A DNA stretch of 64,000 nt from a virus, in IMG/VR virus record IMGVR_UViG_3300030107_006824, positions 1 through 64,000 of that record; one strand, given 5' to 3'. The notes below the pieces were generated by a model that was not told where the DNA came from, did no database searches, and saw only the letters and a program-made list of their open reading frames with translations. Within the stretch, counting starts at the first letter, position 1, and every line of letters begins with the position of its first letter. Shown here piece by piece: positions 3,849-32,449 of the stretch. The position numbers were made by a program, and so were the translations under genes.

Positions 3849-3942
3849 GCACATAGTCTATTTAAACAATCAATACTGATGGCCTTAGCGCCAATCAACA
3901 TCATCACCCTTAGTGTTGGTTGTTGGCGCCTTGACTATGTGC
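3849..3942 (+). ncRNA. Structured RNA element, unassigned
   Basis: A perfect 10-base-pair stem (GCACATAGTC at 3849-3858 with GACTATGTGC at 3933-3942) encloses an internal hairpin. In that hairpin GCGCCAA (3888-3894) pairs with TTGGCGC (3923-3929) and CAAC (3896-3899) with GTTG (3915-3918). A separate hairpin, CCCATT/AATGGG, follows at 3945-3961. The region has no open frame and lies just upstream of the gene before the tmRNA. It could be a small RNA or a leader controlling the gene at 4001. The pairing is seen directly; the function is unknown. Confidence 0.45.
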
Positions 3943-4000
3943 AACCCATTCACCCAATGGGATTACAATTAATATTATATAGCTTTTACATATATTATTT

Positions 4001-4306
4001 GTGAATTATTGCTTATTTGCTCCAAATGTTAAGGATAAAGGACTTCAATTAAATACTGATGATCATAACGATCTTATTGAAGCACTGCCCGATTACATTG
4101 GTTGCTGGACAACTGCCCAAGATTTGTACTATACTTCTTACTATGAATTAATAGGAGAAGGTCTTATATTTCCAGATGCCAAATTACTAAATGGGTATCT
4201 GAGAGAAATAATAAACAAGCACGGGGATGTTGTCTTAGTGTTCGGTCCTCTTATCGAGTACGAACCATTAGTAGATAATAGCCTTCAATTGTGTCCTCCC
4301 AAATGA
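4001..4306 (+). CDS. Protein of unknown function
   Basis: 101 residues begin at GTG. The protein is acidic and soluble with no recognisable motif. The stop codon lies just before the tmRNA acceptor piece, so the mRNA and the tmRNA precursor may be one transcript. Upstream are a structured RNA element and a separate small hairpin at 3945-3961. Confidence 0.45.
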   Translation: MNYCLFAPNVKDKGLQLNTDDHNDLIEALPDYIGCWTTAQDLYYTSYYELIGEGLIFPDAKLLNGYLREIINKHGDVVLVFGPLIEYEPLVDNSLQLCPPK

Positions 4307-4360
4307 CACTTTAAACTGGGGCGTCTATGTAGGACTCGGGTTCGATTCCCGAATGCTCCA
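4307..4360 (+). ncRNA. ssrA: tmRNA acceptor piece (circularly permuted ssrA)
   Basis: This is the 3' part of a two-piece tmRNA. It holds a T arm (TCGGG 4336-4340, TTCGATT loop, CCCGA 4348-4352), the 3' acceptor strand ATGCTCC (4353-4359) and discriminator A 4360. ATGCTCC pairs with GGGGCAT at 4441-4447 (seven pairs, one G-U). CTATGTAG (4325-4332) pairs with CTGCATAG (4461-4468) to form the long P2 helix. tmRNA rescues stalled ribosomes by acting as tRNA and then mRNA. Marine picocyanobacteria are known to have permuted two-piece ssrA with the acceptor piece upstream, as here. The 5' end of this piece is not defined by sequence; 4307 is the base after the preceding stop codon. Confidence 0.88.
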
Positions 4361-4364
4361 CCTG

Positions 4365-4436
4365 GACCCACTAGTGAAGCGGTTATCACGCCACCCTGTC
4401 ACGGTGGTATCACGAGTTCAAATCTCGTGTGGGTCG
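4365..4436 (+). tRNA. tRNA-Asp (GTC)
   Basis: A complete cloverleaf is present: acceptor GACCCAC (4365-4371) with GTGGGTC (4429-4435), D stem GTGA/TCAC, anticodon stem CCACC/GGTGG with loop CTGTCAC (anticodon GTC), T stem ACGAG/CTCGT and discriminator G 4436. CCA is not fully encoded; CC follows the discriminator. The gene lies between the two pieces of the permuted tmRNA, separated from each by four bases, so its 5' and 3' processing would also cut the tmRNA precursor apart. Confidence 0.95.
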
Positions 4437-4440
4437 CCTT

Positions 4441-4575
4441 GGGGCATCAAAGGTTTTCGACTGCATAGGTGAAACGAGTTAAACGCAAACTCAATCGTTA
4501 AGTTCCAGAGGTCTGCAGTAGCTGTTTGAGCTACGCACACTGACTGACACCAGGCTCTCCAATCCGGTGAGCCTT
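4441..4575 (+). ncRNA. ssrA: tmRNA coding piece with tag reading frame (permuted ssrA)
   Basis: The piece opens with the 5' acceptor strand GGGGCAT and the D-loop analogue ending TTTTCGAC. The P2 5' strand (4461-4468) follows. A resume codon GCA at 4485 begins a tag frame of 14 codons, ANSIVKFQRSAVAV, stopped by TGA at 4527-4529. The ANxIVxFxR core matches the form of cyanobacterial proteolysis tags, but the end is AVAV rather than the usual AA. The downstream part contains GGCTC/GAGCC pairing and then the terminator. The 3' boundary is approximate. Confidence 0.88.
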
Positions 4576-4578
4576 TTC

Positions 4579-4600
4579 GCCAGCTTTCGCTGGCTTTATT
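4579..4600 (+). terminator. Terminator after the tmRNA
   Basis: GCCAGC, TTTC loop and GCTGGC are followed by TTTATT. The same hairpin recurs at 5598 and 13396. Confidence 0.85.
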
Positions 4601-4624
4601 ACTTTGTGTCCCTTATTCACTATC

Positions 4625-4945
4625 ATGGACACCAAAGAACTCAACAAGAAATCATTGCCTCTTTTCAATTTAAATGGCAGTGATCCAGAAACTGTTGCCC
4701 TTGAGTGGCATGAGGCTTACAAGGCTCTACACAAAGCAATTGATTCATTTGCAAGAGCGACACTTCATCCAAGAGACTTTCAATTACAACCTACTGATGT
4801 TTATTTAACAGCACGTACGATACGTGATTCTATGCTTGCTAAATTAAACGAAGTCCAGAATTACACATCTGACCAGTTTGAACATGCCTCGGATTCTAGT
4901 GTAGCTCACAATCAAATAATTATTGAAAAAGAAACACTTACTTGA
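4625..4945 (+). CDS. Small acidic protein, unknown
   Basis: 106 residues start at the ATG at 4625 (MDTKELNKK). An ATG 21 bases further upstream is in frame but sits closer to the terminator and is less likely. The protein is mainly helical and mildly acidic, with a central segment DSFARATLHPRDFQL. No family is recognised. It leads a run of very small genes up to 5934. Confidence 0.45.
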   Translation: MDTKELNKKSLPLFNLNGSDPETVALEWHEAYKALHKAIDSFARATLHPRDFQLQPTDVYLTARTIRDSMLAKLNEVQNYTSDQFEHASDSSVAHNQIIIEKETLT

Positions 4946-5597: not shown

Positions 5598-5620
5598 GCC
5601 AGCTTTCGCTGGCTTTCTTT
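5598..5620 (+). terminator. Rho-independent terminator
   Basis: GCCAGC, TTTC loop and GCTGGC are followed by TTTCTTT. The stem and loop are identical to the terminator after the tmRNA. Confidence 0.85.
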
Positions 5621-13045: not shown

Positions 13046-13213
13046 ATGGAAATAACTAGAGACAATTTATCTGAGTTGACAGAGATAACAGAAGATACAG
13101 TTGAATACTTCTGTGACAAGGAGCGTGTTTCCGGGCAACTTGCCTGGACAGTCATCGAATCACTTGCTACTGCAAAGCTTGCAGAATTAGCAGGAGATCT
13201 GGCTGCAGTATGA
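13046..13213 (+). CDS. Small acidic protein, unknown
   Basis: 55 residues from ATG 13046, chosen because GAAGAGAG precedes it; an in-frame ATG at 13013 would add 11 residues. Largely helical and acidic (ELTEITEDTVEYFCDKERV). Its stop overlaps the ATG of the next gene (TATGA). No family is recognised. Confidence 0.5.
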   Translation: MEITRDNLSELTEITEDTVEYFCDKERVSGQLAWTVIESLATAKLAELAGDLAAV

Positions 13214-13389
13214 CAGCAACTGTAAGTGGAGCCTTCCACATTCAAACCATAGTAAAGTCTGGCGTGAACATCATCAGTGAAACTGAAGGTGTATCACCCA
13301 TGATTTTATGGTGTTTGATAAGGCAACAAGCTGACCGTGAACTTGATCTTATTAAACAAGATCTTGAATCGAAGTCTACATCTCTATGA
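13210..13389 (+). CDS. Small protein, unknown
   Basis: 59 residues starting inside the previous stop region (ATGA overlap). Mixed strand and helix pattern. The C-terminal helix is charged (RELDLIKQDLESKSTSL). A terminator follows at 13396. It forms a two-gene unit with the preceding frame. Confidence 0.5.
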   Translation: MTATVSGAFHIQTIVKSGVNIISETEGVSPMILWCLIRQQADRELDLIKQDLESKSTSL

Positions 13390-13395
13390 ATTTAT

Positions 13396-13422
13396 GCCAG
13401 CTTTCGCTGGCTCTATTCTTTA
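13396..13422 (+). terminator. Rho-independent terminator
   Basis: GCCAGC, TTTC loop and GCTGGC, then a T-rich but interrupted tail. The stem is identical to those at 4579 and 5598. Confidence 0.8.
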
Positions 13423-13460
13423 TGTCCTTAGGGGCACTTGTACACCCTGTTTAAATTCAA

Positions 13461-14129
13461 ATGACTGTAACAGAATCATCGTCCAGCATAACAGAAATTA
13501 TTGATGAACTTACTCAAAGCAGTACTTTCGTTGATGCCATGATTGGAGTTGGAGTAGTTAAGGATAGTGAAGCTGTCTTTTTTGAATACATTGGCGAAAA
13601 AGATCATCGTGCCCTGGTTGATCCCAAATCAGGCAAGCCTGTTAAAGCATTCGGTAATGTATGGCTTACCGGCATTTCTGTAGCTGAAGACATTGGCAAG
13701 TTTAAATCAACTAAGTTAAACCTTTACTTGCGTACTGGTTTCGGTAAAACACTTCTTATCACCTCTGGGTTAAATACTATCTGGAGTCAATGCGTTCTTA
13801 CTGGTCTAATGGGTCTACTAAATAACCAGTATCCATTGATTAATCCTATTAGTATTGAAACATGGAAAGGCACTTCTGCAATGAAGCCTTGTTTTGCAGC
13901 TGTTAAAATTAACAATCAAAAATTTAGTGACAATGATATGTATGAGTGTCTGAAAGAAGCACGTGCTGAAAACAATCGAGCTAAAGTGATTGATATCTGC
14001 AGAGATGCTGTCGAAGTTATCAATAATTATATTACTGTAGATGACGTGCTAGCAGAAAGCCAATCCTCTGTAGAAGTTGAGGTGATTGATGAAAATACAA
14101 ATCAGCTTCAAGAACAAGCAGACTTCTAG
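13461..14129 (+). CDS. Protein of unknown function with acidic docking-type tail
   Basis: 222 residues. The first 140 are strand-rich with glycine turns and the last 40 are acidic, ending NQLQEQADF. The ending is one of a group of acidic tails with a final phenylalanine in this genome (20042, 21416, 22153, 28705), reminiscent of SSB-type tails. The body has no motif I can name. A nucleic-acid role is inference from the tail and from the position at the head of the metabolism block. Confidence 0.55.
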   Translation: MTVTESSSSITEIIDELTQSSTFVDAMIGVGVVKDSEAVFFEYIGEKDHRALVDPKSGKPVKAFGNVWLTGISVAEDIGKFKSTKLNLYLRTGFGKTLLITSGLNTIWSQCVLTGLMGLLNNQYPLINPISIETWKGTSAMKPCFAAVKINNQKFSDNDMYECLKEARAENNRAKVIDICRDAVEVINNYITVDDVLAESQSSVEVEVIDENTNQLQEQADF

Positions 14130-32344: not shown

Positions 32345-32449
32345 TCGTTACAATAAAAGAGTACGTTCATCAGCATTAGCTGACGCAAGTAGGCTCAAGA
32401 TAGGAGCTGAAGGAACGGGATTATTATCCAAATCTACCGGAGTAATCCA

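Follow-up and report, generated by a model that had tools for sequence, protein, structure and literature searches.

A tRNA-Asp gene within the intervening segment of a putative permuted tmRNA gene of a marine cyanophage

From the transcripts of permuted tmRNA genes, tRNA-processing enzymes make two pieces, which remain paired (PMC11915505, PMC9004378). Two-piece tmRNAs are encoded also by marine phages, including Melnitz (PMC9004378). Nawrocki, Petrov and Williams (2025) reported that the intervening sequence of a single permuted tmRNA, that of GCA-2688965__sp002688965.2, a nominally archaeal metagenome-assembled genome, contains a tRNA-Ala; the case was given one sentence and was called unique (PMC11915505). 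No further report of a tRNA nested in a permuted tmRNA was found in the open-licence papers. The original prediction for the locus studied here knew of no described case, and in this point it is corrected by the above precedent. The locus is very probably a functional-looking permuted two-piece ssrA gene of a phage, in which a tRNA-Asp fills the short segment that must be removed, and its transcript would give both a tmRNA and a tRNA-Asp.

Source phage and anatomy of the locus

The window, a stretch of 64,000 nucleotides, is a part of the 70,254 bp virus record IMGVR_UViG_3300030107_006824. The genes of the record include psbA, ribonucleotide reductase, DNA polymerase, tail, capsid and terminase, and this set with psbA identifies the source as a cyanophage. 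The capsid protein shared 69% identity with its counterpart in Synechococcus phage S-EIV1, the sole isolate match; the contig belongs to an S-EIV1-like lineage of psbA-carrying marine cyanophages. In S-EIV1, the sole isolate relative, neither a tmRNA nor a tRNA was detected with ARAGORN and motif searches. Elsewhere in the same phage, a glutamine riboswitch (RF01739, 49.8 bits) was found at 32362-32421 of the window and a long intergenic inverted repeat, CACATAGTC...GACTATGTG, whose inner arms are rich in GGCGCC, at 3849-3945.

The features of the locus are presented in Table 1. The predicted coordinates of the acceptor piece, the spacers, the tRNA-Asp and the coding piece were reproduced to the base, and all the predicted pairs between the two tmRNA pieces, 7/7 in the acceptor stem (GGGGCAT/ATGCTCC) and 8/8 in P2, were intact. 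The tRNA-Asp is complete with respect to the model and has a full cloverleaf, the anticodon GTC and G73 (Rfam 62.6 bits; ARAGORN). The mature acceptor piece may start upstream of 4325, near a hairpin at 4291-4309. No promoter could be assigned with confidence to the tmRNA locus. In the 2.8 kb scanned for terminators, 1.8 terminator-like matches were expected by chance; a stem-loop with a T run stands directly 3' of the coding piece of the sister phage L121 (see below), as it does in the window. The 16-base terminator-like stem-loop GCCAGCTTTCGCTGGC occurs twice in the window, at 4579-4594 and 5598-5613, about 1 kb apart.

Table 1. Features of the nested tmRNA/tRNA-Asp locus (positions in the window).
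Feature	Position	Strand	Evidence
P2 3' strand CTATGTAG, tmRNA acceptor piece	4325-4332	+	8/8 pairs with 4461-4468; MFE fold; covariation in relatives
tmRNA T-arm	4336-4352 (within 4333-4360)	+	RF04321 tmRNA_permuted alignment; fold
Acceptor 3' strand ATGCTCC	4353-4359	+	RF04321 alignment; fold
Discriminator A4360, end of acceptor piece	4360	+	CCA not encoded
Spacer CCTG, 4 bases	4361-4364	+	Sequence
Complete tRNA-Asp(GTC) inside the intervening segment	4365-4436	+	ARAGORN; RF00005, 62.6 bits
Spacer CCTT, 4 bases	4437-4440	+	Sequence
Coding piece, 5' part	4441-4484	+	RF04321 alignment; fold; pair counts
Acceptor 5' strand GGGGCAT with G3.U70	4441-4447	+	RF04321 alignment; fold; followed by TTCGAC
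P2 5' strand CTGCATAG	4461-4468	+	Pairs with 4325-4332
Tag reading frame ANSIVKFQRSAVAV and stop	4485-4529	+	Tag of sister phage L121, ANSIVKFERTAVAV
Hairpin GTAGCT-GTTTG-AGCTAC containing the tag stop codon	4518-4534	+	MFE fold
Possible H-type pseudoknot CACC/GGTG + GGCT/AGCC, end of coding piece	4548-4573	+	Read from the sequence only
Stem-loop and T-rich tail resembling an intrinsic terminator	4579-4600	+	Consensus scan, weak

Identity of the flanking pieces

The Rfam model RF04321 (tmRNA_permuted) aligned both pieces across the tRNA-Asp with 43 bits and an E-value of 2.5e-7, the gathering score being 47 and the obtained score including the cost of the 76-base insert. In the search of the whole record, the E-value of the match was 8.1e-9. 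No tmRNA was called at the locus by ARAGORN, and at the Rfam gathering threshold only the tRNA was listed there. The cyanobacterial tmRNA model RF01851, with the gathering threshold of 70 bits, gave no listed match in the window because the coding piece is short. The locus is classed as a permuted tmRNA with a cyanobacterial-type tag and not as a member of RF01851. Standard tools miss nested tmRNA genes of this sort, and since both ARAGORN and the Rfam gathering thresholds did so here, more such loci probably exist than are counted.

The G3.U70 wobble and A73 are identity elements of AlaRS and mark an RNA for charging with alanine. Both are present in the acceptor stem of the tmRNA, the T-arm is preceded by GGAC, and the coding piece contains TTCGAC. 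The tag frame GCA...TGA, which follows the resume codon, encodes ANSIVKFQRSAVAV of the cyanobacterial ANxIVxF type; the tag ends with AV instead of the usual AA. In the unconstrained MFE fold of 4280-4606, the cloverleaf was enclosed by the acceptor stem, T-arm and P2 of the tmRNA; the fold had a z value of -4.34 and none of the 100 shuffles was equally stable.

The covariation of the helices was determined over 36 distinct permuted tmRNAs gathered by motif. In the three helices, 96% of the cells were paired, and the pairing collapsed when the partner strands were slid by 1-3 columns. Compensatory changes in relatives, the absence of which was named in the original prediction as a refuting outcome, were present: 123 double-changed cells were observed in comparison with 30 in shuffles. 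The acceptor strands were partly preset by the motif search, and the T-stem was restricted in some of its patterns, therefore the counts of P2, with double changes in 6/8 columns over the 36 sequences, are the fairest test of covariation. Two such helices, loosely placed, were obtained also in 4.4% of the trials with shuffled flanks, and the pairing statistics were for this reason rejected as the sole proof of a tmRNA. The case for a tmRNA is strong because of the canonical positions, GGAC/TTCGAC, G3.U70, the tag frame and the relatives.

Slot contents in the sister phage and in other phages

The sister phage L121 (IMGVR_UViG_3300007346_000050, a contig of 45,432 bases) has many structural genes in common with the phage of the window, its terminase and capsid proteins being 86% and 80% identical, respectively. 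It carries the same two tmRNA pieces with the tag ANSIVKFERTAVAV, in which 7 codons are changed compared to the window, 5/7 of them synonymously. The slot of L121, i.e. the segment between the two pieces, is 403 nt long and has no tRNA. It holds a frame of 149 aa (13117-13575) with the LAGLIDADG-like start GIIDGEGS, which extends into the coding piece. The Pfam score of this frame with LAGLIDADG_3 was 19.9 (cut-off 22.5), so its possible identity as a homing endonuclease serves as a lead. No earlier description of an endonuclease frame in a tmRNA slot was found in the open-licence papers. The comparison of L121 with the window indicates that the content of the slot changes while the tmRNA stays. 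About 100 further records of the lineage gave no convincing tmRNA, many of them being fragments and the scans being weak for long slots. As these records gave none and no gene with the coding-piece signature was found in cellular genomes with the pattern used, the tmRNA is a rare accessory gene in the S-EIV1-like lineage. Searches of phage isolates with the coding piece, searches with the neighbouring ORF 4604-4945 and two viral patterns that followed the window sequence too closely gave no useful match.

The same kind of tmRNA with a slot of 4-5 nt was found in the isolates S-SSM7 (L425), Sf-FS3 (L426) and S-CAM1 (L427). These slots are naturally unoccupied, and in comparison with them the tRNA stands out as a clean insertion. 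The tmRNAs of these isolates score above the RF01851 cut-off; the records leave them unannotated and place hypothetical proteins over some of their length. In a sample of tmRNAs gathered by their tags and not selected for tRNAs, the cyanophage slots were mostly 4-8 nt long and a tRNA was present only in L166, which indicates that a tRNA-filled slot is uncommon. The tags of L373, L378 and S-SSM7 were unusually long, about 31-32 residues, with an apparent added ANNIVAFSR block after the first A-N/K start. Phage tags of the cyanobacterial type (surveyed in L096, L100, L101, L103, L106, L117, L119, L120, L135 and the window, 4485-4529, among others) were mostly valine-ended (ALV, SLV, TLV, AVAV), with 14 of the 24 distinct tags departing in this way from the usual Ala-Ala end; this suggests that the degradation signal is altered.

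The conservation of the order in other contigs, proposed originally as a check, was borne out: a tRNA occupied the slot in L166, L370, L320/L373/L378 and L316, and all their tmRNA scores were above the permuted-tmRNA cut-off. These cases were collected with a pattern of an acceptor piece followed by a D-arm, which selects tRNA-like slots and gives no frequency. Besides the tRNA-Asp of the window, three phage groups had tRNA-Asn and one had tRNA-Ala. The tRNA-Asn of L166 is adjoined by psbA. In L370, the tmRNA with its tRNA-Asn stands in a row between tRNA-Thr and tRNA-Arg; L320/L373/L378 also hold tRNA-Asn. The tRNA-Ala was detected in L316, with baseplate wedge and DNA ligase genes nearby. 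Baseplate hub genes (phrog_1922) identify L370, L320 and L378 as contractile-tailed phages. In most of the nested cases the spacers were 3-5 nt long, as between clustered tRNAs.

The slot tRNA-Asn of L370 was 94% identical to the free-standing tRNA-Asn of Sf-FS3 and 83-85% identical to the other slot tRNA-Asn genes, while that of L166 was 97% identical to the free-standing tRNA-Asn of Marine virus AG-345-F15. The resemblance to different free-standing genes suggests that tRNA-Asn was captured at least twice, in addition to the captures of Asp and Ala. The slot seems to offer a cheap site for insertion and to have been used repeatedly: it is empty or holds a tRNA (Asp, Asn, Ala) or an endonuclease-like frame. 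The slot of a beta-type permuted tmRNA in L418 / L424 (10720-10850) folds as a degenerate tRNA-like cloverleaf and is possibly a decayed captured tRNA. L310 and L317, where a standard tmRNA end is followed by an ordinary tRNA, and L304, a run of tRNAs, were rejected as nested cases.

It is unlikely that the tmRNA of the window is a decaying remnant which was split by the inserted tRNA-Asp and that only the tRNA is used. The Rfam score below the threshold, the lack of a tmRNA in most relatives and the AV end of the tag would agree with such decay. However, every acceptor (7) and P2 (8) pair is retained with changes compensated, the tag frame is open and conserved at the protein level with L121, the insert sits exactly in the segment outside the mature RNA, and the same site is occupied in other phages with high-scoring tmRNAs. 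About as improbable is a used tmRNA in which the tRNA-Asp is a mere processing spacer without decoding. The pieces would be forced apart by whichever RNase P/Z substrate the slot contained, and the degenerate fold of L418 could be read in this sense, whereas the 62.6 bits, intact GTC anticodon and G73 of the tRNA-Asp, together with slots of 4-8 nt that suffice in other phages, argue against it.

A chance or assembly artefact, i.e. a run of tRNAs (the 3' half of a tRNA-Tyr and the tRNA-Asp) misread as a tmRNA, or a chimeric contig, is hardly credible. By blastn, 4339-4436 matched S-PM2 and S-CREM1 at their tRNA-Tyr/tRNA-Asp tandem, and the frequency of loose helices in shuffled flanks also speaks for chance. 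In contrast, the upstream half has a P2 strand in place of a tRNA-Tyr body, the coding piece, tag and G3.U70 are specific to tmRNA, L121 has both pieces without any tRNA, and the arrangement is repeated in other contigs. The predicted phage permuted tmRNA that has tRNA-Asp as its intervening segment is supported by the covariance model and the structure, by the tag frame, and by the sister phage and other phages whose slots hold tRNAs.

Proposed maturation and comparison with known systems

In the transcript of a nested permuted tmRNA gene, the two tmRNA pieces would pair by the acceptor stem and P2 around the tRNA cloverleaf. RNase P would cut at 4364/4365, in front of the tRNA-Asp, and at 4440/4441, in front of the coding piece, and the nucleases of tRNA 3' maturation would trim the transcript back to A4360 and to G4436. 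A host enzyme would add CCA to both 3' ends, since neither CCA is encoded. The cut sites for freeing the tRNA-Asp are four bases away from the sites that the tmRNA requires. These steps would give a tRNA-Asp and a two-piece tmRNA, which would be charged with alanine and would work during infection with the SmpB of the host, assumed because no SmpB gene is present in the 70,254 bp record. Judged from the anatomy of the locus, one transcript would yield three stable RNAs, in line with the known maturation of permuted tmRNAs and tRNAs.

The part of a permuted RNA gene that is thrown away may accordingly hold a further stable RNA, which the same cuts would set free, and the natural empty and filled slots of phages make the maturation of permuted tmRNA directly testable. 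It seems somewhat probable that the phage tmRNA slot is a general cargo site that tRNAs of several isotypes and homing-endonuclease-like genes have entered repeatedly, and that the host tRNA enzymes cut the transcript into two tmRNA pieces and a working tRNA, by which ribosome rescue would be coupled with decoding supply in the course of infection.

The locus shares the piece order, the acceptor stem with G3.U70, P2 and the ANxIVxF-type tag with permuted tmRNA (RF04321; cyanobacterial RF01851), but its intervening segment is a complete tRNA and its coding piece is short. A phage-encoded permuted ssrA is common to this locus and the two-piece tmRNAs of Melnitz, S-CAM1, S-SSM7 and Sf-FS3, whereas the 4-5 nt slots of the latter three isolates have no tRNA inside. 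In the intron-form tmRNA, a mature tmRNA is likewise obtained after an internal segment is removed; there a group I intron interrupts the T-loop, which splicing rejoins, while the segment of the present locus has a natural RNA end on either side and no rejoining follows its removal. GCA-2688965__sp002688965.2 likewise has an intact tRNA between the two pieces of a permuted tmRNA. That single case holds tRNA-Ala; the phages have tRNA-Asp, tRNA-Asn and one tRNA-Ala in several cases, together with empty-site relatives. Given the slot tRNA-Ala of phage L316, a possible phage origin of the GCA-2688965__sp002688965.2 contig is worth testing. The basic idea already has this one precedent; what is new is the occurrence in phages, the tRNA-Asp and tRNA-Asn forms, the recurrence and the comparison with empty sites.
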